This document shows positions 2,373 through 63,620 of a DNA stretch of 64,000 nucleotides, piece by piece. Position numbers and translations under genes: made by a program. The notes beneath the pieces are model-generated. The model searched no databases. It saw nothing but the letters and a program-made list of their open reading frames with translations, and was not told where the DNA came from. Location: the NCBI RefSeq assembly GCF_003797835.1, contig NZ_RKMF01000004.1, forward strand, positions 62,001-126,000. Direction: 5' to 3'. The DNA comes from Kocuria soli (GTDB taxonomy: Bacteria; Actinomycetota; Actinomycetes; Actinomycetales; Micrococcaceae). Numbering within the stretch: position 1 is the stretch's first letter; every line of letters starts with the position of its first letter.

Positions 2373-2751
2373 TTCCCTGTTCGCGGTTCTTCAGCCACCT
2401 TGAGGATTCACGTGAGAGTTGACCCAACCTTCAGGGTCAGGTTGAACGGCTCGAAACACTCTGCGACACCAGAGCACACTGATCGAAGGTGAAACTTGAG
2501 GTTCGGCTTCATGCCTGGCCACTCTGGAGCCCGGCGGCAGAGGCAGGTTTTCGGGGCATACGTAAAGCCCGGCAGGTGTCGCGGCTTCCCCTCCGCGACC
2601 CCTGCCGGGCTTTGTGTCTTCAGTTTAGGGGCATGAATCCGACGAAAGCAACCCGGACTAGCACGGTTTTTGGGGTCCCGACCGAAAAACCCCGGGCGTG
2701 TCCGCCACTGTTCAGGTCGACCGGCCCCGCGATCCGCATGATCACGCGGAT
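2373..2751. other. convergent intergenic region with extra hairpins
   Basis: This stretch of about 380 bases lies between ppgK (plus) and nrdR (minus) and has no convincing gene. It holds a large hairpin at 2564-2613 and an imperfect one near 2415-2440 (TGACCC/GGGTCA). Open frames crossing it are shadows or lack ribosome sites. A small RNA is possible but not shown by the sequence. Confidence 0.5.
2564..2613 (-). terminator. large hairpin, probable nrdR terminator
   Basis: AAAGCCCGGCAGG is matched by CCTGCCGGGCTTT, and the stem extends inward through GTCGCGG/CCGCGAC around a loop of about 8 bases, with one bulge. It ends in A/T runs on both sides and so could work in either direction. Its place downstream of nrdR makes that gene the likely user. 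Confidence 0.7.
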
Positions 2752-13564: not shown

Positions 13565-13607
13565 ACGACCGTGGCCGGAGACGACAATCGTCTCCGGCCA
13601 CGGTCGT
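13565..13607 (-). terminator. ftsZ terminator
   Basis: An 18-base perfect stem (ACGACCGTGGCCGGAGAC and its complement) with a 7-base loop lies about 80 bases after the ftsZ stop and before pgeF. It has no T-run, which is common in high-GC terminators. It is the strongest hairpin within the division cluster and marks the end of the main dcw transcript. Confidence 0.82.
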
Positions 13608-51024: not shown

Positions 51025-51030
51025 TACTTT
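51025..51030 (+). promoter_or_regulatory. ktrB leaderless -10 box
   Basis: TACTTT preceded by TG lies 7 bases before the GTG at 51038, with no ribosome site between, so the transcript probably begins at the start codon. Confidence 0.55.
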
Positions 51031-51037
51031 GTGTCCT

Positions 51038-52498
51038 GTGCCCCTCGAAGAGGACTTGTACCGGCTGACAACGCGCATCCGCTCCCGGCGCCCCCAGCCG
51101 TGGATGGTGTCGGCTCGCCGCTGGTTCATCCGCCCCCAACCCGCCCCTGGCTCACGAAGAGCCCGCGCCACCTCAGCCGGACGCACCGCACAGATGCTGG
51201 TCACCGGTTTCGCCGTCGTACTCGCGCTGGGTACCGCGGCGCTCATGCTCCCGTTCGCCACGCCCGGGCCCGGTCACGCAAGTTTCATGGAAGCGCTGTT
51301 CACGGCCACGTCATCTCTGTGCCTGACGGGGCTGATCGTGGTCGACACCCCCACGTACTGGACCACGTTTGGTCAAGTGGTCATCCTGGCGCTGATCCAG
51401 ATCGGTGGGTTCGGCGTGATGACCTTCGCGACGATGATCGGCATCTTCATGTCACGGCGCTTCGGGCTCGGCCTGCGGGTGGCCGTGGCCTCCGAGACGC
51501 GTTCGACGGGGCCGGGCGAGATGCGCCACGCGGTCAAACGCATCGTGTTCACGATCGTCGCAGTGGAGACCGCCGTGGCCCTGCTGCTGGCCGCGCGATT
51601 CGCAACGGGCTACGGCTACTCCCCCGGCAAGGCGCTGTGGCACGGGGTGTTCCACTCGATCTCCGGGTTCAACAACGCCGGATTCGCCCTGTACACGGCC
51701 AACCTGATGGATTTCGACGGCGACCCGCTGGTGCTGTTGCCGATCGCCGCCGCCGTGATTGTGGGCGGGCTGGGCTTTCCCGTGATCGTGGAACTGCTGC
51801 GCCACATCCGAGTACCCAGGCTCTGGTCGATGACCACGCGCATGATGGTGGTGGGCACCCCGGTGTTGTTGCTGGGCGGGACGGCGTTCCTGCTGCTGGT
51901 CGAGTGGGGCAACCCGACCACACTGGGCCCCATGGGCTTCGGAGACAAACTGCTCAACGCCTTCTTCCAGTCCACCATCACCCGCACGGCCGGGTTCAAC
52001 TCCGTGGACCTGGCAGGCATGCATCCCGTGGCCTGGTTCGGCATGGACTTCTTGATGCTGGTGGGTGGCGGCTCCGCGGGGACGGCCGGTGGTCTGCGAA
52101 TCACCACGGTGCTGGTGCTGCTGTTCGTCGCCTGGACCGAAGTCCGGGGACAACAGGCCGTCAACGTTCTGGGCCGCAGGCTCTCGCGTTCCGTGCAGCG
52201 CGAGGCGTTGACCATCGTGGTGCTGTCGATGGCGATCCTGGTCACCGCCCAGATGGGCTTGATGCTGCTCGAACCGGACCTCGGTCTGGACCGGCTCTTG
52301 TTCGAATCCGTCTCTGCCTTCGCCACGGTGGGGCTGTCCACGGGAATCACCGCCCAGATCGGTACGGGTGGGCAGCTGATCCTGATCGCCCTGATGTTCA
52401 TCGGCCGTCTGGGCCCCACCACGATCGCCGCTGCCATCGCTGCGCAGGACACGACCCGCACGTGGGAACTGCCCAAGGAACGCCCGTTGATCGGATGA
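51038..52498 (+). CDS. ktrB: K+ uptake membrane subunit KtrB/TrkH
   Basis: The ion-conducting subunit of a Trk/Ktr potassium transporter. Four pore loops are visible: TATSSLCLTGL, HSISGFNNAGFAL, TITRTAGFNSVDL and SAFATVGLSTG, each with the filter Gly. About eight membrane segments are seen in 486 residues. The GTG at 51038 is chosen because TACTTT is positioned for a leaderless message; a TTG three codons earlier is the alternative. The regulatory partner ktrA follows after a 123-base gap that holds a large palindrome. Confidence 0.93.
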   Translation: MPLEEDLYRLTTRIRSRRPQPWMVSARRWFIRPQPAPGSRRARATSAGRTAQMLVTGFAVVLALGTAALMLPFATPGPGHASFMEALFTATSSLCLTGLIVVDTPTYWTTFGQVVILALIQIGGFGVMTFATMIGIFMSRRFGLGLRVAVASETRSTGPGEMRHAVKRIVFTIVAVETAVALLLAARFATGYGYSPGKALWHGVFHSISGFNNAGFALYTANLMDFDGDPLVLLPIAAAVIVGGLGFPVIVELLRHIRVPRLWSMTTRMMVVGTPVLLLGGTAFLLLVEWGNPTTLGPMGFGDKLLNAFFQSTITRTAGFNSVDLAGMHPVAWFGMDFLMLVGGGSAGTAGGLRITTVLVLLFVAWTEVRGQQAVNVLGRRLSRSVQREALTIVVLSMAILVTAQMGLMLLEPDLGLDRLLFESVSAFATVGLSTGITAQIGTGGQLILIALMFIGRLGPTTIAAAIAAQDTTRTWELPKERPLIG

Positions 52499-52508
52499 CC
52501 CCGGCACC

Positions 52509-52577
52509 CTCCGCCGAACCCTCACGAAACTCGCGCGTGAGGGCGTGAAGCGCGAGTTTCGCGAGGGTTCGGCGGAG
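52509..52577. repeat. palindromic element, copy 1
   Basis: Arms 52509-52535 and 52551-52577 (27 bases each, one mismatch) enclose a 15-base loop. The core GAACCCTCRCGAAACTC is shared with copies at 59684 and 61560. It lies 10 bases after the ktrB stop and 44 bases before ktrA, so an RNA hairpin would form inside a presumed operon. It lacks a T-run. Confidence 0.9.
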
Positions 52578-52621
52578 GATGGGCAGAGACAGCGCGACTC
52601 AAGACTTTGAAAGGACGCCAA

Positions 52622-53335
52622 GTGTTCAACCAACGTGGCCGTGAGCATGCATCACGCCAGGAGTCCCGCCGCGGCCACCTCCGCTCGGCGGTGGTGATCG
52701 GGCTGGGCCGATTCGGCTCGGCCCTCGGTCAGGAGCTCATGGACAGCGGCGTGGAGGTCCTGGCCATCGACGACGACCCCAAGGTGGTCCAGGAGTTCAA
52801 GGGCCAGTTCACCAGCGTGGTCCGCGCGGATGCCACCTCTCAACAGACACTGGAGGAGCTGGGTGTCTCCGACTTCGCCGCCGTCGTGGTGGCCATCGGT
52901 ACGGACCTGGAAGCCTCGGTCCTGACCACCTCCAGGCTCCTGGCCATGGAGAACGTTCCGGAGATCTGGGCCAAGGCCATTTCGGAGGCCCACGCCCAGA
53001 TCCTGGAACAGCTGGGGGTGACGCACGTGATCCGCCCGGAACACGACATGGGCCTGCGGACGGCGCACCTGCTGATCGGCCACGCCCTGGACTTCGTCTC
53101 GCTCGACGGCGGTTTCGCGCTCATTCGCTGCCAACCCCCGGCCGCCACGCAGCAACGCCCCTTCGACACGCTCAACCTGCGCCAGAAGTACGGGGTCACC
53201 GTGGTCGCCCTGCGTCGCAATGGGCAGCAATGGAGCCCGATGGAACCCGGCACCATGCTCTACGACGACGATGAGATCATGGTCACAGGCACCAAGCACG
53301 ACGTCGAACACTTCGCGGGCCTAGACTCGAACTAG
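52622..53335 (+). CDS. ktrA: K+ uptake regulatory subunit KtrA/TrkA
   Basis: A cytosolic RCK subunit gating KtrB. The RCK_N Rossmann motif is AVVIGLGRFGSALGQELMDSGVEVLAIDDD (Gly-x-Gly-x-x-Gly then Asp), with VVRADATSQQTLEELGV following. The RCK_C part is at TLNLRQKYGVTVVALRRNGQQWSPMEPGTMLYDDDEIMVTG. The GTG (VFNQRGREH) is chosen for AAAGGA 6 bases upstream; an in-frame TTG lies five codons earlier. The length is 237 residues. Confidence 0.93.
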   Translation: MFNQRGREHASRQESRRGHLRSAVVIGLGRFGSALGQELMDSGVEVLAIDDDPKVVQEFKGQFTSVVRADATSQQTLEELGVSDFAAVVVAIGTDLEASVLTTSRLLAMENVPEIWAKAISEAHAQILEQLGVTHVIRPEHDMGLRTAHLLIGHALDFVSLDGGFALIRCQPPAATQQRPFDTLNLRQKYGVTVVALRRNGQQWSPMEPGTMLYDDDEIMVTGTKHDVEHFAGLDSN

Positions 53336-53352
53336 TCATACCCCATGGGGTA

Positions 53353-53370
53353 CCGGGGGCCTCGCCCCGG
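53353..53370 (+). terminator. probable ktrA terminator
   Basis: CCGGGG and CCCCGG enclose a 6-base loop 18 bases after the ktrA stop. Just before it, TACCCCATGGGGTA (53339-53352) is a perfect 14-base palindrome that could strengthen the structure. Confidence 0.55.
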
Positions 53371-53523
53371 ACCACCTCGCATTCCGTGACCCGAACTGCC
53401 CAGCGATCGCCGACTCCACGCGGCATCCTCCCGGATCATTCGTGACCCACCCACAGCGAGCATCGGGTGGTCCGAGCCACGGCCGACACGATCCGCACCC
53501 CGTGTGCGGGCGGGAGAAGCGGC

Positions 53524-55116
53524 ATGGATCCACTCGAAATCGCCCGGTGGCAGTTCGGCATCACCACCGTCTACCACTTCATCATGGTCCCGTTGACCCT
53601 GGGGCTGGGGCCCCTGGTCGCGATCATGCAGACCCTCTGGGTGCGCACCGGCAACGAGCGCTACCTGCGGATGACCAAGTTCTGGGGCAAGGTCTACCTG
53701 ATCAACTTCATCATGGGAGTGGCCACGGGACTGGTGCAGGAATTCCAGTTCGGGATGGCCTGGAGCGAATACTCGCGGTTCGTGGGCGATGTGTTCGGCG
53801 CCCCGCTGGCCATGGAGGGGTTGCTGGCCTTCTTCTTCGAGTCCACCTTCATCGGTCTCTGGATTTTCGGCTGGGACCGGCTGCCCAAGAAGATCCACCT
53901 GGCCTGCCTCTGGATCGCCGTCCTGGGCTCGGTGGCCTCCGCCTACTTCATCATCGTGGCCAACTCCTGGATGCAGCACCCGGTGGGCGTGGAAATGGTC
54001 GACGGGCGACCCGTCATGACCGACATCTGGGCCGTCCTGACCAACAACACCGCCCTGGCCGCTTTCACCCACGCGATCTTCGGTGCCATCGGCGTTGGTT
54101 CAGCCCTTTTGATCGGCATCTCCTGGTACCACCTGTGGCAGCGCCGCCGCGACGGGATCGACACGGTGGACCAGAACGGGCGCGTCGTCGTCGGTGAGAA
54201 TCCTGCGATCCCGGGTCGGGACCGGGAGGACCACTCCGTGTGGCTCAAGTCCCTGCGACTGGGGGCCGTGGCCGCCATGATCGGGTTCGCGGGAGTGGCT
54301 GTGACGGGCGACGTCCAGGGCAAGCTGATGTTCGAACAACAACCCATGAAGATGGCCGCCGCCGAGGCCGCCTGCCACGACGGCACGAGCTTCTCCGTGC
54401 TGTCCGTGGGAGACCTGGGCAGCCAGAACTGCGACGACGTCAAGGGCCTGATCGAGATCCCCGGGCTGCTGTCCTTCCTGGCCGAAGGAGATTTCGGCAC
54501 GCCCGTCCGCGGCGTCTACACCCTGATCCCCGAATACGAACAGGACTACGGCACCAACCTGCCCGAAGACGAAATCTACGGCGAGCGCTCGGGCCAGGAG
54601 ATCGACTACCTCCCGCTCATGGAGGTCACCTACTGGGGCTTCCGGATCATGATCGGCTTCGGCGCAGCGGCCACCGGGTTCGCCGCGCTGGCCCTGTGGA
54701 TCGCCCGCAAGGGAACGGTCCCGGCATCGAAACCCTTGATGTTGTTGGCCGTGGCCTCGATCGGCGCGCCGTTCGTGGCCAACATCGCCGGCTGGGTCTT
54801 CACGGAGATGGGCCGCCAGCCCTTCGTGGTGGCACCGAACCCGGACCCCAGCGGCATCGACGGCGTGTACATGTACACGGCGGCAGCCGTCTCCCCCGGG
54901 GTGACCGGACAGGAGGTCATCTTCTCCCTGGTCACCCTGGGGCTGATCTACCTGGCCTTGTTCGTGGTGGAGGTGTTCCTGCTGGTCAAGTACGTCCGCG
55001 GCGGCGTGGTCTCGGCGATGCCGGAACTGGCGGCCCACGACCACTACGGCGGTGACGGCCACGGCGGCGCTCGGGGGCCGCACTCCGACGACGACGTCCT
55101 GGCCTTCGCGTACTGA
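53524..55116 (+). CDS. cydA: cytochrome bd oxidase subunit I
   Basis: The quinol-oxidising, heme-bearing subunit of the high-affinity terminal oxidase. The N-terminal MDPLEIARWQFGITTVYHFIMVPLTLGLG contains a heme His. GMAWSEYSRFVGDVFGAPLAMEG, AAFTHAIFGAIGVG and the GRQPFVV Q-loop block are typical. About nine membrane segments occur in 530 residues. The start is set by family similarity and GGGAG 7 bases upstream. The C-terminus is His/Gly/Asp-rich (HDHYGGDGHGG). No Rex or other operator is recognised in the 188-base leader, which has a weak CCACCC/GGGTGG stem. Confidence 0.96.
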   Translation: MDPLEIARWQFGITTVYHFIMVPLTLGLGPLVAIMQTLWVRTGNERYLRMTKFWGKVYLINFIMGVATGLVQEFQFGMAWSEYSRFVGDVFGAPLAMEGLLAFFFESTFIGLWIFGWDRLPKKIHLACLWIAVLGSVASAYFIIVANSWMQHPVGVEMVDGRPVMTDIWAVLTNNTALAAFTHAIFGAIGVGSALLIGISWYHLWQRRRDGIDTVDQNGRVVVGENPAIPGRDREDHSVWLKSLRLGAVAAMIGFAGVAVTGDVQGKLMFEQQPMKMAAAEAACHDGTSFSVLSVGDLGSQNCDDVKGLIEIPGLLSFLAEGDFGTPVRGVYTLIPEYEQDYGTNLPEDEIYGERSGQEIDYLPLMEVTYWGFRIMIGFGAAATGFAALALWIARKGTVPASKPLMLLAVASIGAPFVANIAGWVFTEMGRQPFVVAPNPDPSGIDGVYMYTAAAVSPGVTGQEVIFSLVTLGLIYLALFVVEVFLLVKYVRGGVVSAMPELAAHDHYGGDGHGGARGPHSDDDVLAFAY

Positions 55117-55144
55117 CCGACACCCGACCTGCTGGAGAGTCATC

Positions 55145-56176
55145 ATGGAAGTTCTTCACGTCATCTGGTTCGCGGCGCTGGCGTTCCTGTGGACCGGTTA
55201 TCTGGTCCTGGACGGTTTCGACCTGGGCGTCGGGATGCGGATCTGGTTGCGCGGCCGCACGGAGAAGCAGAAGCGGCTCATGCTCAACACGATCGGCCCG
55301 GTCTGGGACGGCAACGAGGTCTGGCTCATCACGGCCGGGGCGGGCACATTCGCCGCCTTCCCCATGTGGTACGCGGGGCTGTTCTCCTCCCTCTACATCC
55401 CGCTGACGATCGTGCTGGTGGCCTTGATCTTCCGCGCCGTCTCCATCGAGTACCGCGGGAAGGGACACACCGATCGGTGGCGTGCCAACTGGGACCGCGC
55501 CCTGGGCCTCGGCTCGGCGGTGATCGCCTTCGGCATCGGCGCCATGCTGGCCAGCACCACTCTGGGCCTGCCCATCGACGCGAACGGCGACCGGGTCGGC
55601 GGTCCGTTTGCGTGGTTCTCCTGGTACGCCGTTCTGGGTGGCCTGGCCGTTCTGGGTTTCAGCTGGATCCACGGCGCCGCGTTCCTGGCCCTCAAGGCCA
55701 GTGGTCAGGTGCGTGCGGACGCCCTGCTCGCCGTGCGTCGGTGGTTGCCCCTGGCGGTCGCGCCGTTGGTGGTCTGGGTCCTGGTGGTCCAGTGGCGGTA
55801 CGGCTCGGTCGCAACGTGGGCGGCCGTCGTCGTGGCCGTCGTGGCGCTGGCCGGTTCGTGGCTTGCTGCCCGCGCGGACCGGGACGGTTGGACCTTCGCG
55901 TGCCTGGCGGCGTTCCTGGTGACCGGCGCGATCTCGATCTTTGCCGCGGTCTTCCCCGTGGTCCTCCCGTCCACGGTCGACCCCGCCTACGACCTCACGG
56001 TGGCCAACGCCTCCAGCGGTGACTACGCGCTGACGATCATGACCTGGGTGGCCGGCGTCGCGTTGCCGCTGATCCTGGTCTACCAGGCGTGGAGCTACTG
56101 GACCTTCCGGCGGCGGTTGTCCGAGGTCCACATCCCCGAAGGGCACGAGGTGCGCCCCGCCGTCCTGCCCCGATGA
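55145..56176 (+). CDS. cydB: cytochrome bd oxidase subunit II
   Basis: The partner of CydA in the oxidase. It starts MEVLHVIWFAALAFLWTGYLVLDGFDLGVGM, and NTIGPVWDGNEVWLITAGAGTFAAFPMWYA is the conserved family block. About nine membrane segments are seen in 343 residues. GGAGAG lies 5 bases upstream. It overlaps cydDC by 4 bases (ATGA). Confidence 0.96.
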   Translation: MEVLHVIWFAALAFLWTGYLVLDGFDLGVGMRIWLRGRTEKQKRLMLNTIGPVWDGNEVWLITAGAGTFAAFPMWYAGLFSSLYIPLTIVLVALIFRAVSIEYRGKGHTDRWRANWDRALGLGSAVIAFGIGAMLASTTLGLPIDANGDRVGGPFAWFSWYAVLGGLAVLGFSWIHGAAFLALKASGQVRADALLAVRRWLPLAVAPLVVWVLVVQWRYGSVATWAAVVVAVVALAGSWLAARADRDGWTFACLAAFLVTGAISIFAAVFPVVLPSTVDPAYDLTVANASSGDYALTIMTWVAGVALPLILVYQAWSYWTFRRRLSEVHIPEGHEVRPAVLPR

Positions 56177-59100
56177 CCCCCGGCGACCGGCTGGGGCCGG
56201 GTGGTGTCCGTGCACTGATCGTGTTCGGGGTCTTGGCGGCGCTCAAGGCGCTGTCCCTGGTCATGATCGCCGAGGCGATGGCCCGCGGGATCGTGGGAGC
56301 CATTGCCCGGGATGCGACGGCCATCGATCACGCCGTGACCCTGGGACTGGCCGGGGCCGTGCTGCGAGCTGGCCTGGTCTGGGTCCAACACTGGTATGCC
56401 ACGCGGGCCGCCGTCATGGCCAAGCAACGGATCCGTCAGGACATGGCGGCCGGGATGCTCGCCCGGCCTTCCGGTGGTGTGGGGGCCAACGCCGCCGTGG
56501 CCACGATCGGGTTGGACGAGCTCGACGAGTACTACCGCTCCGTCCTGCCCACCGCGGTGTCGGCTGCAACGGTGCCCGTGCTGGTGGGCGCCAGGATTCT
56601 GGCCGCCGACTGGCTGAGCGCGTTGATCATCGCCCTGACCCTGCCCCTGGTGCCGGTGTTCATGATCCTGGTCGGGCAGCACACCCGGGCGGAGGCCGAC
56701 CGGTCCTCGGCGACCCTGCAGCGGCTGTCCGACCACCTGGTCGAGCTCGCGCGCGGGCTGCCCGTGTTGGTCGGGCTGGGGCAGCTCTCCGAGCAGTCCG
56801 CTGCTCTGGATCGCATCGGTCGGGAGCACAAGGCCGCCACGCTGCGAACCCTGCGAACCGCTTTCCTGTCCGCGCTGGTCCTCGAACTGATCGCGACGCT
56901 CTCCGTGGCGGTCGTGGCGGTGTTCATCGGGGTCCGGCTGATCGACGGGTCGCTGCCTCTGGCCACGGGGTTGGCGGTGCTGGTCCTGGCCCCCGAGTGC
57001 TTCCAGCCGTTCCGCGAGCTGGGCGCGGCCTTCCACGCGTCGCAGGACGGGCTGGCCGCCCTGCGACGGGCCCGGGAATTCGCCCCGGAATCCGGTGCCG
57101 AGCCGGTCGACTCGGCCACCGTCCGTCCCGGTGGGAGCCGTCCCGTGGGTACCCGGGCCATAGGCACCCGGTCCGGAGCCGCCGTCGGCGTGCGCCTCGA
57201 GGGCCTGACGGCGGGGTACCCGGGTCGGAGCCCTGTGCTCGAAGGGTTCGACGCGTGGTTCCCCGTCGGCCAGATCACGGCGGTGACCGGTGCCAGCGGA
57301 ACGGGCAAGTCCACGCTTTTGGGCGTCCTGGCCGGCCTGGTCCCCGTACGCGCGGGAGCCGTCATCGGTGTGGACCCCGCGCGCGTCGCCTGGGTCCCCC
57401 AGGTGCCACGAACCGTGGGCGACACGGTCCGAGCCGAACTCGAACTGTACGCAGACACCACCGACACGGCGGCCCCGGACGGCGAAGCCAGCACGGTACC
57501 AACCCTGGTTGACGAGGTCCTCGAGCAACTCGACCTGGCGCCCCGGGCCGAGGCGGATCCCGCCCAGTTGAGCCCCGGGGAACTGCGCCGTCTGGCCGTG
57601 GCCCGCGGGCTGCTGCGCATCCGCACCGGTGCCACGGTGCTCCTTGTCGACGAACCGACCGCCCACCTCGATGCCGACTCAGCTCGGCTGGTGCTGGACG
57701 AACTGGCCTCCGTCGGTCGACTCCCGGGGGTGACCGTCATCGTGGCCTCCCACGACCGTCGGGTCGTGGACCTCGCGACCCACCGGGTGGCCCTTGGGCA
57801 CGACGGGGGATGGCGCGAAGATCCCGCAACGACCGATGCCACGACCCTCCCTGGGCAACCCGGCCGACTCGACGACGACGGTGCGACTCCCCCGGGCGAG
57901 CTGTCCGGCCATGACGTCGAAGCGCCCGTCAGGGATCCTTCCGCTCGCGATACAGCCGCGGCGGAAGCGAGCGCGCCGAGGAACGCCCGGGCAGAAGCCT
58001 TCAGGTTCCTGGCCTCGACCCCGTGGCTCTGGGTGGCCGCCGTCGTGGCGGGAGTGGCGGCTGCCGCTTTCGCGACGGCGCTCACCGCGCTGTCCGGTTG
58101 GTTGATCGTGCGGGCCTCCGAACAGCCGTCGATCATGTACCTGACCGTGGCGATCGTGGGAGTGCGATTCTTCGGCATCGGGCGCGCCGTGTTGCACTAC
58201 GTCCAGCAGCTGGCGGCCCACTCTGCCGTGTTCACCTCGCTCGTGGACCTTCGTTCTCGCCTGTGGTCAGGACTGGCCCGGCGCGGCCTCTCCTCCCGTG
58301 CCCTGGCGACGGGGGCGTCAGCTCTGGAACACCTGATCGTCGCGGCGGACCGGGTCCGGGACCTCATGCCCCGGGTTCTCGTTCCCGTGGGAGTGGGAGT
58401 GGGCACCACGGTGCTGGTCCTGACCGTTTACGCCGTCCTGGTGCCCGCCGCCGTTCCGGTGATCGCCGTCGCGTTGGGCGTTGCCCTGCTCGTTGCACCG
58501 ACCGTGGCCCTGGCTGCGGATCGTTTGGCGGCAAGGGCGGGGGTGGCAGCCACAGGCGGGATCGTTCGAGCCTTCGTGCAAATGGGCGCCGCGGTGGGAG
58601 ATCTGTCCCCCAACAACCGTCAAGCACAGGCGCTGCGGCGATTGAGCGACCTCGACGTCCGGGCCGGTGCGCTGGCCCGGCGAGGAGCCTGGGCGCAAGG
58701 CCTGGGAGAAGCGCTCGTCGTCCTGAGCACGGTGGCCGCCGCCGTCCTCGTGCTCCATCCGGCCGCTTCTGCTTTGGGCGCCGGGTCGATCAGCAGGCCG
58801 GTGGTTGCCGCGCTGGCCCTTGTTCCGTTGGGCCTGACCGAACCGCTGGTCGCCGTGGTCTCGGCGGTCCAGCAAGCGCCCGGTCTGCGCGCCGCACTGC
58901 TCCGAACAGCCTCGGTGACGGTCCCGGGCAAGGCTCCAGCCCAGGTCCCCGTCGCGGCGACGGGGACGGCATCGGCTGTGCCGGCGGGACATGCCGAGCC
59001 GACCGGCCTTCCGCCCGACTCCCAACGGCGCGAGCCGGCCGGTCCGCAACTGGTGTTGGACAACCTGAGTGCGCGGTGGCCGGGTGCCGACAGAGCAGCT

Positions 59101-59673
59101 TTCGGGCCCGTGGATACCACCGTTCGCCCCGGGCGCTGGCTGGTAATCGAGGGCCCCTCGGGCAGCGGCAAGTCCACGTTGCTGGCCACCGTGATGGGGC
59201 ACCTGGCGCCGTCGTCGGGATCGGTGCGGGTCACCGGGGTGCCTGAGGAAAACGCGCCCTCGATCGTGTGGTGTCCGCAAGAGGCGCACCTGTTTGCCTC
59301 CACGATCAGGGGCAATCTCGCCCTGGCGCGGCCCAAGGCGGACGCGCCTTCCGCAGACGAAATGACGGACGTGCTGCGGCGCGTGGGACTGGGCCCGTTC
59401 CTAGACGCCCTTCCGCAAGGCTTGGACACCTGGGTGGGCAGCGGCGGCTCCGAGCTCTCCGGAGGCCAGGCGCAACGCGTGGCCGTGGCGCGGGCCTTGC
59501 TGGCTCGTGGGCAGGTGATCCTGCTGGACGAACCGACGGCGCACCTGGACGCGGAGGCCGCACAAGACCTGCTGGCGGACCTCCGTGAGGCGCTGGTCGA
59601 CCGCCCGGTGGTCCTGGTCACCCACCATGCGGAAGACCTGGACCCGACCGATCATCGCTTGCGTCTGGGCTGA
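56173..59673 (+). CDS. cydDC: fused CydD-CydC ABC exporter
   Basis: A 1166-residue single protein joining the two half-transporters needed to assemble cytochrome bd; in E. coli CydDC carries cysteine/glutathione or heme-related cargo. The first half (CydD-like) has six helices, Walker A GASGTGKST near residue 372, signature LSPGELRRLAVARGLL and Walker B VLLVDEPTAHLD. The second half starts near residue 600, with Walker A GPSGSGKST near 994, signature LSGGQAQRVAVARALL and VILLDEPTAHLD. The first signature is degenerate (LSPGE), suggesting unequal ATP sites. Fusion is known in some actinobacteria. Two Pro/Ala/Gly linkers join the parts. Confidence 0.94.
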   Translation: MTPGDRLGPGGVRALIVFGVLAALKALSLVMIAEAMARGIVGAIARDATAIDHAVTLGLAGAVLRAGLVWVQHWYATRAAVMAKQRIRQDMAAGMLARPSGGVGANAAVATIGLDELDEYYRSVLPTAVSAATVPVLVGARILAADWLSALIIALTLPLVPVFMILVGQHTRAEADRSSATLQRLSDHLVELARGLPVLVGLGQLSEQSAALDRIGREHKAATLRTLRTAFLSALVLELIATLSVAVVAVFIGVRLIDGSLPLATGLAVLVLAPECFQPFRELGAAFHASQDGLAALRRAREFAPESGAEPVDSATVRPGGSRPVGTRAIGTRSGAAVGVRLEGLTAGYPGRSPVLEGFDAWFPVGQITAVTGASGTGKSTLLGVLAGLVPVRAGAVIGVDPARVAWVPQVPRTVGDTVRAELELYADTTDTAAPDGEASTVPTLVDEVLEQLDLAPRAEADPAQLSPGELRRLAVARGLLRIRTGATVLLVDEPTAHLDADSARLVLDELASVGRLPGVTVIVASHDRRVVDLATHRVALGHDGGWREDPATTDATTLPGQPGRLDDDGATPPGELSGHDVEAPVRDPSARDTAAAEASAPRNARAEAFRFLASTPWLWVAAVVAGVAAAAFATALTALSGWLIVRASEQPSIMYLTVAIVGVRFFGIGRAVLHYVQQLAAHSAVFTSLVDLRSRLWSGLARRGLSSRALATGASALEHLIVAADRVRDLMPRVLVPVGVGVGTTVLVLTVYAVLVPAAVPVIAVALGVALLVAPTVALAADRLAARAGVAATGGIVRAFVQMGAAVGDLSPNNRQAQALRRLSDLDVRAGALARRGAWAQGLGEALVVLSTVAAAVLVLHPAASALGAGSISRPVVAALALVPLGLTEPLVAVVSAVQQAPGLRAALLRTASVTVPGKAPAQVPVAATGTASAVPAGHAEPTGLPPDSQRREPAGPQLVLDNLSARWPGADRAAFGPVDTTVRPGRWLVIEGPSGSGKSTLLATVMGHLAPSSGSVRVTGVPEENAPSIVWCPQEAHLFASTIRGNLALARPKADAPSADEMTDVLRRVGLGPFLDALPQGLDTWVGSGGSELSGGQAQRVAVARALLARGQVILLDEPTAHLDAEAAQDLLADLREALVDRPVVLVTHHAEDLDPTDHRLRLG

Positions 59674-59683
59674 CTCCTACGCT

Positions 59684-59738
59684 GAACCCTCGCGAAACTC
59701 ACCCATCGCACCCTGATCGGTGAGTTTCGCGAGGGTTC
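59684..59738. repeat. palindromic element, copy 2
   Basis: Arms 59684-59703 and 59719-59738 (20 perfect pairs) enclose a 15-base loop. The core GAACCCTCGCGAAACTC is identical to that in copy 3. The outer 7 bases seen in the other copies have diverged. It begins 10 bases after the cydDC stop. Confidence 0.9.
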
Positions 59739-59788
59739 GACGAGAGCTCGGATCAGCAACACTTGCTGTCGGCCCCGGCCCGGGGTTC

Positions 59789-59794
59789 TAGGCT
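59789..59794 (+). promoter_or_regulatory. leaderless -10 box of the receiver/TrxR-like gene
   Basis: TAGGCT is followed by 6 bases and then ATG at 59801, so the transcript should start at the A of the start codon. This supports the ATG over an in-frame GTG two codons earlier. Confidence 0.6.
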
Positions 59795-59800
59795 GTGCGC

Positions 59801-61558
59801 ATGACTGAACGTCCCGTGATCCTGCTGGTGGCAGAGGCCCACCGCGACGTGATCGAAGCCGAGTTCCGTGCCCGTTACGACCGTGACTACGCCATCGAGG
59901 TGGCATCCTCCGGACGGGAGGCGCTCGAACGTGCCGCGGACCTGTGCACGGTCTCCTCCCGTCTCGCGATGGTCGCGGCCGAGTACCAATTGCCCGACGC
60001 CACCGCAATCGACCTGTTGCGCGAGATTCAGGCGGTCAGCCCGCCGTCGCGTCGTGTGGCCCTGGTGGACTTCGACGACTACGCGGAACACCTTGAAGAG
60101 CTCAAGCGGGCCGCCCTGGAACGGGACATGGACACGTTCGTGGGCATCCCGCGCGGGCCGCGGGACGAGGAGTTCCACACGGCGCTGATCGAGCTGCTCT
60201 CCGAATGGGGCTGGTCCGTGGCCCACCCTGTGGTGACCGCCGTGGACGTGGTCTCCGACGGTCCGACCCCGACGACGGCCGCCATCCGTGACGTCCTGGA
60301 CAGGATGGGTGTCCCGAACAGGCTCCTGGCCCTCGACGACGAAGACGCGCAGGCGATCGTGGAGGAAGTCGGCCCCGACGCCCGGCTGCCCCTTGTCCGG
60401 CCCATCCGCGGCGAGGTCATTCAGGACGCGACTCCGCAGTCCGTGACCGAACGCCTCTACGGAAGCTACGACGCGATCCCGGAAGGCACGATCGCCGACG
60501 TCGCCGTGATCGGCGCCGGTCCGGCCGGCCTGGCCGCCGCCGTGTACGCCGCCTCGGAGGGGCTGTCCACGATCGTGCTGGAATCGGATGCGATCGGCGG
60601 TCAGGCCGGGTCCTCGTCCATGATCCGCAACTATCTGGGCTTTCCGCGCGGGATCTCCGGGATGCGTCTGGCGCAGCGTTCCAGGATCCAGGCCGGGCGG
60701 TTCGGTGCGACGTTCTACACGGGGCGTCCCGTGGTGCAGGTGGAGCCCGGACCAGCCGACGAGCCCGAGCACCACCACGTGCTGGTCGAAGGAACTCACC
60801 TGTGCGCCCGTACGGTGGTCGTCGCCACGGGTGTGGCCTACCGGCGGCTGGGCGTCGCGTCCGTGGACGAGCGCATCGGGATGGGCGTGCACTACGGCGC
60901 CGCCACCTCCATGGCGCGGGAGATGCAGGACAAGGAGGTCTACGTGGTCGGCGGTGGCAACTCCGCGGGGCAGGCAGCCGTCCACATGGCCAAGTTCGCC
61001 CGCAACGTGACCATCGTGGTCCGCCGGGACTCCCTCACCGCGACCATGTCCGACTACCTGATCCGGGAGGTCGAGGCGACACCAAACATCGCGGTCCGCA
61101 CCCACTCCCGGGTGGTGGACGCCGGAGGCTCCGGTCGACTGGAGTGGATCGGCCTGGCGGACAGCCGGTCGGCAACAGCCTCCGCGTCCGCGCAATCGGA
61201 GACCCGAGCGCCGTCGTCGTCGGACCCGGAGCCGGAAGTGGCCTCGGACTCGGTTGAACGGCTGCCCGCGGACGGTCTGTTCTGCCTGCTCGGCGCCCAG
61301 CCGGCCTGCCACTGGCTCCCGGAATCACTGGCCCTGGACGATCACGGTTTCATCCTGACCGGGCGCGACGTCCCTCAGGAGACGTGGACGGACGGTGTGC
61401 CCCCGGCCAGCTTGGAGACCACCATTCCCGGGGTGTTCGCGGTGGGCGACGTGCGCGCCGGCTCGATGAAGCGCGTGGCCTCGGCCGCCGGCGAAGGCGC
61501 CTCCGTCCTCCCTCTGGTGCACGCGCACCTGGAAAAGCTCCGCCAGTCCGGCGTCTGA
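59801..61558 (+). CDS. receiver-domain/thioredoxin-reductase-like fusion
   Basis: A 585-residue fusion. Residues about 1-135 resemble a response-regulator receiver (PVILLVAEAHRDVIEAEF, LVDFDDYAEHLEELKRAALERDMDTFVGIP). A thioredoxin-like linker (about 145-215, DVLDRMGVPNRLLALDDEDAQ) follows, then a thioredoxin-reductase-type FAD/NADPH part: VIGAGPAGLAAAVYAA near residue 237, ESDAIGGQAGSSSMIRNYLGFP, VYVVGGGNSAGQAAVHMAKFA near 384, and VFAVGDVRAGSMKRVASAAGEGA. The CxxC redox pair of thioredoxin reductase is missing, so it is not a standard one. Similar fusions exist in actinobacteria with unknown substrates. It is flanked by two palindromes. Confidence 0.85.
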   Translation: MTERPVILLVAEAHRDVIEAEFRARYDRDYAIEVASSGREALERAADLCTVSSRLAMVAAEYQLPDATAIDLLREIQAVSPPSRRVALVDFDDYAEHLEELKRAALERDMDTFVGIPRGPRDEEFHTALIELLSEWGWSVAHPVVTAVDVVSDGPTPTTAAIRDVLDRMGVPNRLLALDDEDAQAIVEEVGPDARLPLVRPIRGEVIQDATPQSVTERLYGSYDAIPEGTIADVAVIGAGPAGLAAAVYAASEGLSTIVLESDAIGGQAGSSSMIRNYLGFPRGISGMRLAQRSRIQAGRFGATFYTGRPVVQVEPGPADEPEHHHVLVEGTHLCARTVVVATGVAYRRLGVASVDERIGMGVHYGAATSMAREMQDKEVYVVGGGNSAGQAAVHMAKFARNVTIVVRRDSLTATMSDYLIREVEATPNIAVRTHSRVVDAGGSGRLEWIGLADSRSATASASAQSETRAPSSSDPEPEVASDSVERLPADGLFCLLGAQPACHWLPESLALDDHGFILTGRDVPQETWTDGVPPASLETTIPGVFAVGDVRAGSMKRVASAAGEGASVLPLVHAHLEKLRQSGV

Positions 61559-61559
61559 C

Positions 61560-61628
61560 CCCCGCCGAACCCTCGCGAAACTCGCCTATCAGGCCCTGAT
61601 CGGCGAGTTTCGCGAGGGTTCGGCGGGG
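61560..61628. repeat. palindromic element, copy 3
   Basis: Arms 61560-61586 and 61602-61628 match perfectly over 27 bases with a 15-base loop; the loop itself can pair (ATCAGG/CCTGAT). The stem starts 2 bases after the stop of the receiver/TrxR-like gene and lies between convergent genes, so it could act as a two-way terminator. Confidence 0.92.
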
Positions 61629-61643
61629 AGAGAGGGACGTGGG

Positions 61644-63473
61644 TCAGGAACGACGCCGGAACGGGTGCTCGTCCTGGGTGGCCATCTGTGCCTCCAGCTC
61701 GGCGATGATCGTCCGTGCGTCATGCGGACCGATGTGCCGTGACCCGTTGAGGAAGAACGTGGGCGTCCCCCGCGCACCGCTGTCCAGCGCGCTCTCCTTG
61801 TGCTTCCTGACCACCTTGAGCAACACGGGGTCCTCGAGGTCACGCTCGAACTGTTCCAGGTCCAGGTCAAGCTCGCGCGCCAGATGCGTGTAGGTCTCCT
61901 CCCCCAGGTCGTTCTGGTGGTCGAACAGCGCCTTGTGCATGCCCCAGAACTTGTCCTGGCGGGCCGCAGCCTCGGCTACGACGGCGGCGCGCTCCGCGTG
62001 TTCGTGCAGGTCAGTCACCGGAAGGTGCCGCACCACGAATCGCACCCGGCTCCCGAAATGCTCCTTGAGGTCCTGGGCGATGCCGGTGGTCCGGGAGCAG
62101 AACGGGCACTCGTAGTCGAAGTACTCGACCACCTCGGCCTCAGCGTGTGGCGATCCGATGATGTGGTCGTACTCCTCGTGGATCGGCGGCGTCAGAGTCA
62201 CGGGGAGATCGGCGGAGACCTCCCCGAATCGGGTCCGGGCCACCCGGAAGATCAGCCAGCCGAGGATCCAGGCGAGGACCATGGCCAGCAGGACACCCAC
62301 GGTGGCGGAACTGATCTGCGACTCCTGCGTGAAGGCCAGACCGATCACCAGCAGGGACACGGTGAACCCGATCCCGGACAGGGCGGCACCGCCCATGATG
62401 GACCCGGGCCCGACGCCGTCGGGAAGCTTGCCGAGCCCCATGCGGATCGCCAGCCACGTACCCCCGGAGATGCCGACCAGCTTCCCAATCACCAGCCCCG
62501 CGACCACACCCCACGTCACCGTGGAGGTCAGCGCAATCCCCAGGGTGTCCCCGCGCAGGTCCACTCCGGCATTGGCCAGCGCGAACAGCGGCACCACGAC
62601 CAACGACGACGCCCCGCGCAGGCTCACGTGCAACCGCTCGTTCACGGAAATCGACTGCGCCAGGCCCCGCGAGGCGGACCGGGCCACATCAGCCTCGGGC
62701 GACTGCCGGAAGTCCCGGAACAGGTTGCCCACGTGGTCCACGATGCCGCGATGTGTGGCGAAGGCCGGGACCAGCAGGCCGGCGATCATGCCCGCGATGG
62801 AGGGGTGGATGCCGGACTCCAGGGTGGCCAGCCACAGCACGACCACCAGTGCCACGTACGGCGCCGATCGCCACTGCCGGGTCCGGCCCAGGAAGTAGAG
62901 CGCGACCAGCGCCACAACGGCGACCACCAGGGCGGTGATCTTCAGCCCGTCCGTGTAGTACACCCCGATGATGCTCACGGCCAGGAAGTCGTCCACCACG
63001 GTCAGCGTCAGGAGGAAGATCCGCAACTGGTTGGACATCGCGGGCCCCACAAGGGCCAGAGCCCCCAGGAGGAAGGCCGTGTCCGTCCCCACCACAGCAC
63101 CCCACCCGGCGGCGGCCTCCCGCCCGGCGACCGCCAGGTAGACGGCGGCCGGCACGGCAACTCCCAGGACACCGGCCACCAACGGGACCAGCGCCCGTCG
63201 TCGGTCGCGGAGGGACCCCACGGCCAGTTCTTGCCGCACTTCCAGCCCGACCACGAAGAAGAAGATCACCATGAGCCCGTCGTTGACCCAGTGGTGCAGG
63301 CTCAGGTCCAGCCCCCAGGGCCCCAGCGTCACACCCAGGTGGGTCTCCCAGATCTCGTGGTAGAGCCCCGACCAGGGGGAATTGGCCCACGCCAGGGCGA
63401 ACAACGTGACCGCGACCAGCAGGAGGGCACTGCCTGATTCGCTGCGGAGACGATCGAGCACTGTGGTGCGCAT
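61644..63473 (-). CDS. nhaA: NhaA antiporter fused to a DsbA-like domain
   Basis: A Na+/H+ antiporter of about 390 residues joined to a C-terminal thiol-disulfide domain. NhaA blocks include VNDGLMVIFFFVVGLEVRQEL, GTDTAFLLGAL, LLTLTVVDDFLAVSIIGVYY (paired Asp) and GGAALSGIGFTVSLLVIGLAF. The DsbA part has YFDYECPFCSRTTG (CxxC near residues 456-459) and GTPTFFLNG (cis-Pro loop). The chosen ATG gives 609 residues. The frame is open to 63596, but that region holds a strong terminator-like palindrome, so the longer start is unlikely. Such fusions are known in actinobacteria. Confidence 0.93.
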   Translation of the reverse strand: MRTTVLDRLRSESGSALLLVAVTLFALAWANSPWSGLYHEIWETHLGVTLGPWGLDLSLHHWVNDGLMVIFFFVVGLEVRQELAVGSLRDRRRALVPLVAGVLGVAVPAAVYLAVAGREAAAGWGAVVGTDTAFLLGALALVGPAMSNQLRIFLLTLTVVDDFLAVSIIGVYYTDGLKITALVVAVVALVALYFLGRTRQWRSAPYVALVVVLWLATLESGIHPSIAGMIAGLLVPAFATHRGIVDHVGNLFRDFRQSPEADVARSASRGLAQSISVNERLHVSLRGASSLVVVPLFALANAGVDLRGDTLGIALTSTVTWGVVAGLVIGKLVGISGGTWLAIRMGLGKLPDGVGPGSIMGGAALSGIGFTVSLLVIGLAFTQESQISSATVGVLLAMVLAWILGWLIFRVARTRFGEVSADLPVTLTPPIHEEYDHIIGSPHAEAEVVEYFDYECPFCSRTTGIAQDLKEHFGSRVRFVVRHLPVTDLHEHAERAAVVAEAAARQDKFWGMHKALFDHQNDLGEETYTHLARELDLDLEQFERDLEDPVLLKVVRKHKESALDSGARGTPTFFLNGSRHIGPHDARTIIAELEAQMATQDEHPFRRRS

Positions 63474-63525
63474 GGTGGGCGTCCTGTTCTCACGGGTTGC
63501 GGGTGGTTCCGGCTCAGGGGACGAG

Positions 63526-63556
63526 GAAGCCCCCACCCGCCGGGTGGGGGCTTCCC
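63526..63556 (-). terminator. terminator after the dehydrogenase gene
   Basis: GGAAGCCCCCACCCG and its exact complement (15 bases each) are separated by one base, making a strong hairpin on either strand. It lies 65 bases after the dehydrogenase stop and before the nhaA start, so it likely ends the dehydrogenase transcript. Confidence 0.75.
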
Positions 63557-63620
63557 GACGGCGCCCCGCGGGGTCGTCGTCGAACCGATCAGTCATTGAA
63601 CCAGAACCGGCCGCCCAGGT

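Follow-up and report, generated by a model that had tools for sequence, protein, structure and literature searches.

A stretch of 64,000 nucleotides from a Kocuria soli contig (hereafter 'the window') contains three long palindromes of common sequence, each lying within a few nucleotides of the end of a gene, and the question raised by this locus is what such elements are and what maintains them. All three were located where a first-pass annotation had placed them, and the neighbours that it had named as ktrB, cydDC and receiver/TrxR-like were assigned by HMM searches to a TrkH-type protein, a CydD-CydC fusion and a thioredoxin-reductase-like protein, respectively. The features are as follows.

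51029..52498, + strand: ktrB-like potassium transporter (TrkH; PF02386, 1.8e-54), ending 5' of copy 1
52505..52581, core 52516-52570: palindrome copy 1, downstream of the ktrB-like stop (52498) and ahead of the ktrA-like open reading frame (52607); predicted RNA hairpin -61.5 kcal/mol
52607..53335, + strand: ktrA-like TrkA_N/TrkA_C protein (HMM), downstream of copy 1
56173..59673, + strand: CydD-CydC fusion (TIGR02857 and TIGR02868, above cut-off), ending 5' of copy 2
59680..59742, core 59684-59738: palindrome copy 2, 3' of the cydDC stop (59673); predicted hairpin -44.1 kcal/mol
59795..61558, + strand: thioredoxin-reductase-like gene (open reading frame and HMM), between copies 2 and 3
61560..61628, core 61567-61621: palindrome copy 3, between the convergent thioredoxin-reductase-like and nhaA-thioredoxin genes; predicted hairpin -67.3 kcal/mol
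61644..63596, - strand: NhaA antiporter with a C-terminal thioredoxin domain (open reading frame and HMM), convergent with the thioredoxin-reductase-like gene at copy 3

A 17-mer core shared by the three palindromes was found six times in the window (five times exactly, and once, in one arm of copy 1, with a single mismatch) versus 0.28 occurrences expected, and none of 100 shuffled windows contained six. The constant geometry that had been described for these elements was borne out as a core-to-core span of 55 nt, whereas the accompanying 15-base loop was not, since that interval is partly paired: the gap between ungapped arms is 13, 7 and 1 nt in copies 1, 2 and 3, and the loops in the corresponding RNA folds are 13, 5 and 3 nt. 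The shared core likewise proved to be part of a longer common unit of approximately 57 nt (CGAACCCTCGCGAAACTCGCsCATCAnnnCTGATGsGCGAGTTTCGCGAGGGTTCG), outside of which the sequence CCG..CGG is usually found in this Kocuria genome. A known RNA family was rejected as an identity for the palindromes, as the window gave no covariance-model match at the Rfam gathering level.

An examination of the entire genome revealed 23 such palindromes, mostly at gene 3' ends, and the outcome that the first-pass annotation had named as refuting, a genome-wide total of three, did not arise. Its suggestion that the elements form a REP-like family dispersed among gene ends was correct. The core-to-core span is exactly 55 nt in 23 of 23, and only one of 47 core matches is unpaired. 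Of 25 model hits in this genome, 20 overlap a called stop codon or lie no more than 25 nt from one; the gene settings of the 25 are convergent (14), tandem (7), divergent (3) and at a contig edge (1). Within 850 kb of the genome, 52 strong palindromes of any sequence were found, none of them inside a called gene. The arms covary strongly: changes on both sides of the stem were observed in 356 cells versus 103 in shuffles, with a covariation score of 0.450 that was no more than 0.091 upon sliding. Outside approximately +-29 nt, pairing is only slightly above that of a swapped-locus control, and an origin by insertion of the element into the middle of a pre-existing terminator hairpin was for that reason not adopted.

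The evidence for what might maintain these elements came from the metX locus, where all four Kocuria species compared carry a single gene with the palindrome on both sides. Its product appears, from its sequence, to combine an AbiEi-like N-terminus with a Vsr/DUF559-like C-terminus. PADLOC AbiEi models match the N-terminal region of 21 of 21 such proteins, the C-terminal region resembles PF18741 (MTES_1575) and PF04480 with displayed scores below the Pfam cut-offs (PF18741 reaching E<=0.01 in 13 of 21), and a PDB profile match to PvuRts1I was obtained at E 6e-4. The motifs DS..ET, D, PDLA and Q.[ED]G.HH, which we take to be catalytic-type residues, are largely conserved. Homologs at E<=1e-30 were found in 272 of 395 Micrococcaceae genomes. 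In the named plasmid records encountered, such genes are labelled as hypothetical or DUF559 proteins.

The association of this gene with flanking palindromes was found at most of the close homologs examined. Using a threshold of at least 35 bits, matching flanking repeats were found at 33 of 42 close homologs from Micrococcaceae, a set composed of 23 Kocuria loci and the 19 best-scoring non-Kocuria matches rather than a random draw; palindromes are present on both sides in 26 of the 33, on one side in five and on neither in two, and nine of the 42 have no matching flank pair by that rule. Twelve of 14 distant homologs also passed, versus six of 200 swapped flanks, one of 47 window genes and four of 642 genes in a genome sample (850 kb, or 29% of this genome). 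That 642-gene screen detected one of the three nuclease units within the sample, the other two being missed because the gene caller had truncated both. Left out of these sets were L162, the latter half of a gene hit that was split in two (from the 42), L169, a homolog with a stop (from the 14), and G003 and G005, whose hits were weak (from alignment A2). Matching flanks are also found at some ordinary genes, namely the thioredoxin-reductase-like gene in the window and, on C28, genes of the TM2 and SLH/CAP types. In two named Arthrobacter plasmid homologs, the palindrome is confined to the upstream side, and one of these two palindromes is weak. Across the phylum, 7 of 29 DUF559 loci passed the threshold (L292, a contig-edge hit, being left out) and a clear long palindrome pair was present at only one, such that phylum-wide universality of the flanks was mostly not seen.

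Further analyses showed that different nuclease paralogs are flanked by different palindrome 'dialects'. Across 15 Kocuria units, which were chosen by eye because their palindrome was clear and which include some orthologs of each other, palindrome similarity was correlated with that of the nucleases (Mantel r 0.684; 0 of 5000 permutations). This genome harbors paralog-specific dialects A (the 23 palindromes described above), B (18) and C, and solo copies of nuclease-flanking dialects are present in the same genome. All 18 dialect B palindromes measure 48 nt between pattern ends, and two of them adjoin that dialect's own nuclease unit; among three relatives, no dialect B palindrome was found in G004 or G020, and a single half-site was found in G022. 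In a comparison of one genome per species, four Kocuria were found to have 13 sets of orthologous positions in common, with dialects that are species-specific. Copies within a species resemble each other (0.768) as much as copies at orthologous positions do (0.754), and both values exceed that of other cross-species pairs (0.672). A single hint of more degenerate palindromes after nuclease loss was also observed (0.795 versus 0.840-0.845, with 11 of 75 elements, belonging to other dialects, left out).

These observations bear upon the simplest alternative, which holds that the palindromes are lineage-specific bidirectional terminators or RNA-stability hairpins, that their similarity reflects chance duplication and ordinary gene conversion, and that the nuclease is flanked by them because it lies between convergent genes. 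The hairpins are strong, and they lie after stop codons in mostly convergent settings, so that both the hairpin and the post-stop position of an intrinsic terminator are found. Among the glpX loci of one other genus, a palindrome lies 3' of the gene in 13 of 14 that have a nuclease hit (by tblastn, with L256, at a contig edge, left out) versus 2 of 15 without; where present, it starts 9-30 nt after the stop and holds the place of a terminator. A rule requiring a perfect stem picked out just 4 of the 14 glpX ends that lack the element, and that claim thus rests on position and folding energy: 11 of those 14 ends have a stronger fold than any of 29 random stretches (strongest, -38.8 kcal/mol). 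It is plausible that the palindromes have a terminator-like role. As a full explanation, however, this is unlikely, since it leaves unaccounted for the separate dialect of each paralog's flank pair (which recurs in solo copies within that genome) and the enrichment at nucleases over both other genes and nuclease-free glpX loci. Furthermore, the main dialect has only GAGTTT, inside the stem, and no U-run after the hairpin, and copy 1 separates ktrB from ktrA with little room (25 nt) for a new promoter, a placement that remains awkward for a strict terminator.

It is also conceivable that the protein is an enzyme of defence or restriction type that regulates itself, with the upstream palindrome serving as an operator (in the manner of AbiEi repression). 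The solo copies would then not be products of mobility but would act as decoys, regulatory targets or self-marks. The AbiEi-type match throughout the 21 proteins agrees with such a scheme, as does the upstream palindrome, which lies, where found, about 47-180 nt 5' of the nuclease gene; autoregulation of AbiEi via inverted repeats is described in PMC7319586. A second matching palindrome, however, usually lies 3' of the gene, and the solos lie mostly after stops instead of in promoters, making this reading decidedly unlikely.

A third alternative, that the elements are classical REP/RAYT repeats, MITEs or insertion-sequence remnants, would suit short, dispersed palindromes at gene ends, but is highly improbable. 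The RAYT-type partner that the first-pass annotation had proposed seeking was not found and is rejected: the Y1 transposase domain (PF01797) matched none of the 27 Kocuria genomes searched, whereas the control search detected it in 5 of 14 known genomes. The partner of each dialect instead resembles a restriction-type nuclease, no target-site duplication was seen by eye around the palindromes, and the nuclease matched no phage record and only 5 and 3 plasmid records (two queries). Neither transposition nor cleavage was seen, the plasmid and phage collections gave no useful case of mobility, and no precise ancestral empty site was obtained; for the aqp-gpx unit, orthologous gpx ends were found in Kocuria without a precise junction, and the corresponding site in this genome carries a palindrome of yet another sequence. 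Units and solos occupy orthologous loci, so that any movement is long past, slow or absent. These findings on mobility count against the reading preferred below as well.

In REP/RAYT systems, the RAYT gene has REPs on its flanks and REPs favour gene ends; the present system displays both dispersed extragenic palindromes and an enzyme gene flanked by cognate palindromes, albeit by way of a different enzyme. The reading that we prefer, with a probability of roughly 0.6, is that the palindromes make up the scattered, non-coding portion of a repeat family tied to an enzyme, which would resemble REPIN/RAYT systems but use an unrelated enzyme, and whose palindromes would replace terminators; the activity of the enzyme and the mobility of the system we infer. 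The AbiEi-like domain would recognise the palindrome, a role proposed because AbiEi proteins bind inverted repeats (PMC7319586), and the Vsr/DUF559-like domain would cut it or the DNA close by. Repair, or copying at a low rate, might then spread and homogenise the palindromes within a genome, so that a change in enzyme dialect would be followed by its sites. Ordinary gene conversion could also account for the homogenisation. They would persist mainly just 3' of stop codons, because there they would be harmless and act, often bidirectionally, as transcription terminators or 3'-end hairpins in place of ordinary terminators. Inheritance of the resident unit would be chiefly vertical, as has been described for RAYT genes, which also retain a lasting association with their repeats (PMC8049555; see also PMC8266576 and PMC3733652).

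Several known systems share some of these properties. Neisserial DNA-uptake sequences, which are used as terminators, likewise occur as inverted pairs at the ends of genes and differ in dialect between species, whereas in this Kocuria unpaired cores are rare (the one in 47 noted above), copies number in the tens, and a cognate nuclease-like gene is present. RAYT is a Y1 HUH protein, unlike the AbiEi-like and Vsr/DUF559-like enzyme of Kocuria, and the palindrome of about 57 nt exceeds the 20-40 given for REP in PMC3733652; the Kocuria system also differs in its tens of copies per dialect, its Micrococcaceae hosts, and its several paralogous enzyme/dialect pairs in one genome. MTES_1575 endonucleases are assigned a Vsr-type fold in PMC3710099, the sections of which consulted mention no associated palindromes. 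Unlike AbiEi antitoxins, the Kocuria protein carries a joined nuclease-like domain, and its inverted repeats are dispersed through the genome.

Searches of open-licence papers yielded no description of such a system. We give a slightly better than even chance to the broader proposal that these palindromes represent a new class, widespread in Micrococcaceae, in which every AbiEi-like/Vsr-like nuclease sustains, propagates and homogenises a palindrome dialect of its own, approximately 57 nt in length, and the host uses these palindromes as bidirectional terminators. The matched palindrome pair at most of the nuclease copies examined offers a concrete substrate hypothesis. If the proposal is true, the REPIN/RAYT way of life would have originated a second time, independently, with a restriction-type nuclease in place of a HUH transposase, and domesticated enzyme-plus-palindrome systems would have arisen more than once. 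It would further explain the recurrent hairpins at gene ends in Micrococcaceae genomes, and would provide a natural series of enzymes and dialects in which to follow both the co-evolution of protein-DNA specificity and the conversion of selfish repeats into terminators.

A scan of the whole Kocuria soli assembly (2.95 Mb in 31 contigs, with up to two mismatches allowed) for the core common to three palindromes of the window returned 23 forward and 24 reverse matches, corresponding to 23 palindromes of exactly 55 nucleotides each and one lone half, and a control scan of the whole genome with the reversed pattern returned none. The dispersed family suspected in the first-pass annotation was thereby established, and the existence and places of its three copies were upheld; the 15-base loops ascribed to them were not, as those bases are partly paired and the constant feature is the 55-nucleotide span. 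A gap-free alignment of the family reads CCGCC-GAACCCTCGCGAAACTC-GCsCATCAnnnCTGATGsGC-GAGTTTCGCGAGGGTTC-GGCGG. A covariance model, applied to 27 Kocuria genomes with 150 candidates scored in each, matched this genome at 25 places, K. coralli SCSIO 13007 (G004) at 19, a Kocuria MAG (G020) at 14 and K. subflava YIM 13062 (G022) at 17, with a single weak match in each of two others (G003 and G005) and none in the remaining 21.

Features of the window
2564-2613 and 13565-13607: two further strong palindromes, resembling ordinary terminators
52505..52581: palindrome, copy 1, bordered by ktrB-like and ktrA-like genes
56173-59673 (+): CydD and CydC fused in one 1166-aa ABC exporter, after cydA and cydB
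59680..59742: palindrome, copy 2
59795..61558 (+): TrxR-like gene
61560..61628: palindrome, copy 3
61644-63596 (-): NhaA antiporter with a thioredoxin/DsbA-like domain fused at its C-terminus

The proximity to stop codons noted for these copies extended to the larger set, in which 20 of the 25 covariance-model places in this genome lie within 25 nucleotides of, or overlap, a called stop. Fourteen places are convergent in gene context, seven tandem, one at a contig edge and three divergent, these last being uncertain because the simple codon-usage caller may miss or truncate genes. A sample of 850 kb, or 29% of the genome, contains 52 strong palindromes of whatever sequence, and none of them is internal to a called gene other than near its end. 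If ktrA relies on the promoter of ktrB, transcription must be able to read through copy 1. Additional long gene-end palindromes, with A-tracts adjoining a GC stem (for example TTTGTCAGGnAAAAGGCC), occur at C22:29208, C22:129815 and C28:33836 on two contigs of this genome, and are possibly another family.

At the metX locus of all four species (this genome, G004, G020 and G022), a palindrome was found on both sides of one gene, whose product of approximately 330 residues displays weak C-terminal matches to DUF559 and to the MTES_1575 restriction endonuclease family, the latter described in PMC3710099 as having a Vsr-type fold. The N-terminus gave PADLOC AbiEi matches in 21 of 21 homologs, and a profile search of solved structures matched the protein to PvuRts1I (E 6e-4). 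Homologs were present in 11 of 27 Kocuria genomes at E<=1e-20 and, with at most five candidates scored per genome, in 272 of 395 genomes of the family at E<=1e-30. When the best repeat common to the upstream and downstream flanks was scored in bits, 33 of 42 close homologs reached at least 35 bits (29 at least 45), as did 12 of 14 distant homologs, compared with 6 of 200 swapped flanks and 1 of 47 window genes (the TrxR-like gene that separates copies 2 and 3). According to the palindrome lists, the 33 passing close homologs carry a palindrome on both sides in 26 cases, on one side in five (L183, L210, L221, L226 and L227) and on neither in two (L182 and L214); matching palindromes lie on both sides of 8 of the 14 distant homologs. 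A screen of the 850-kb sample, which missed two further nuclease genes truncated by the gene caller, returned 4 of 642 genes at this threshold: one nuclease gene, the TrxR-like gene, and a TM2-domain gene and an SLH/CAP gene with matching repeats on both sides (C28:176515-177039 and C28:33917-35146; L343 and L345).

The same layout was found in Rothia kristinae and further genera of the family, and two Arthrobacter plasmid homologs have a palindrome upstream only. Palindrome similarity tracks nuclease similarity (Mantel r 0.684, 0 of 5000 permutations) in 15 Kocuria units, picked for a clear palindrome and including some orthologs of each other. Across the phylum, 7 of 29 DUF559 loci reached 35 bits, at least two of them through low-complexity or tandem sequence, and one has a clear palindrome pair; support for the pairing beyond the family is thin.

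This genome harbors three close nuclease homologs and one distant one, each adjoining palindromes of a different sequence type, or dialect: GAACCCTC..., CGAGTGCGCAGTTTGATCGCC..., CGA(C/G)TTCGGGGTTGTTCCGCC... and GAGACCTCCGTTACGGCCC.... The second was found only at its own nuclease gene in the 29% sample. The third numbers 18 palindromes, all 48 nucleotides between pattern ends, two of which flank its nuclease; none was found in G004 or G020, and one half-site in G022. The fourth comprises two 'odd' matches of the first covariance model and further copies, with a palindrome detected only downstream of its nuclease. A 58-nucleotide palindrome of yet another sequence (GAACTGTTCCCCGGAAG...) lies at the gpx 3' end on contig C8 (L232 1409-1466), a position occupied by a nuclease unit in three relatives. 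The nuclease genes at C28:124704 and C22:189243 received poor scores from a codon-usage model that had been trained on the genome itself, a hint that their composition is atypical.

Among 75 elements of the four species, standard pairs fill 89.9% of the cells at 30 pairs, cells changed on both sides number 356 versus 103 (sd 10) in shuffles, and the covariation score is 0.450 versus 0.091 at most when the structure is slid. The four species widely share the outer GAACCCTC and the inner CATCAG..CTGATG; the middle is species-specific (GCGAAACTC in this genome, GCGGTTGTC in G004, ACGTGACTC-like in G020 and ACGGCACTC-like in G022). Elements of one species have an identity of 0.768 (698 pairs), those at orthologous positions 0.754 (38 pairs) and the remaining between-species pairs 0.672 (2039 pairs). 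Since, moreover, 13 element sets occupy orthologous gene ends in at least two of the four species each, the positions look inherited, and within each species the sequences look homogenised as well. An element of G022 at an orthologous site still carries this genome's dialect (0.96 identity), as a leftover would. The metX nuclease of G022 (L123 3081-3893) has an in-frame alignment gap over a stretch with catalytic-type residues, and palindrome uniformity is lowest in that species (0.795 versus 0.840-0.845); this is the single natural hint of nuclease-linked homogenisation, and a weak one, because further open homologs, belonging to other dialects, are present in G022.

In one other Micrococcaceae genus (g9), where 61 genomes have a glpX match, 30 loci were taken and 29 were usable; 14 of the 30, all of them usable, contain a nuclease match. 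Five units lie at one glpX-femAB locus, one of them reversed and of another dialect. The nuclease stands between two palindromes at 10 of the 29 loci, and 13 have neither. A long nuclease match accompanies one detected palindrome at L274 (glpX side) and L249 (far side only), and a palindrome occurs without nuclease at L273 and, directly between glpX and fem, at L257. At L264 and L266, nuclease fragments (146 and 90 residues) accompany one palindrome each; the intermediate loci as a whole look like a series in which units decay to solitary palindromes. Of the 14 loci with a nuclease match, 13 have a palindrome after glpX, versus 2 of the 15 that lack such a match. The element starts 9-30 nucleotides past the glpX stop, leaving little room for another terminator ahead of it, and glpX ends bearing it have folding energies of -44.9 to -70.5 kcal/mol, compared with -28.5 to -55.4 for the other 14 and -19.4 to -38.8 for random stretches; on these grounds the palindrome occupies the terminator's place, with the terminator role itself predicted.

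Searches among open-licence PubMed Central papers turned up no description of palindromes tied to DUF559/MTES_1575/AbiEi-type nucleases, and one may yet exist in print. The RAYT-type transposase envisaged as a partner was not found in 27 Kocuria genomes, and because that enzyme defines REP/RAYT systems the present elements are not members, although they are alike in how the system works. A mechanism built on the observed association of enzyme and palindrome, matching of dialects, conserved places and covariation would be one in which (i) the AbiEi-like domain recognises the palindrome, AbiEi being reported to bind inverted repeats in PMC7319586; (ii) the Vsr-like domain cuts; and (iii) repair leads to slow spread and homogenisation of the palindromes. 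RAYTs are reported in PMC8049555 to be inherited vertically and to replicate REPINs at very low rates, to which the slow spread proposed here may be likened.
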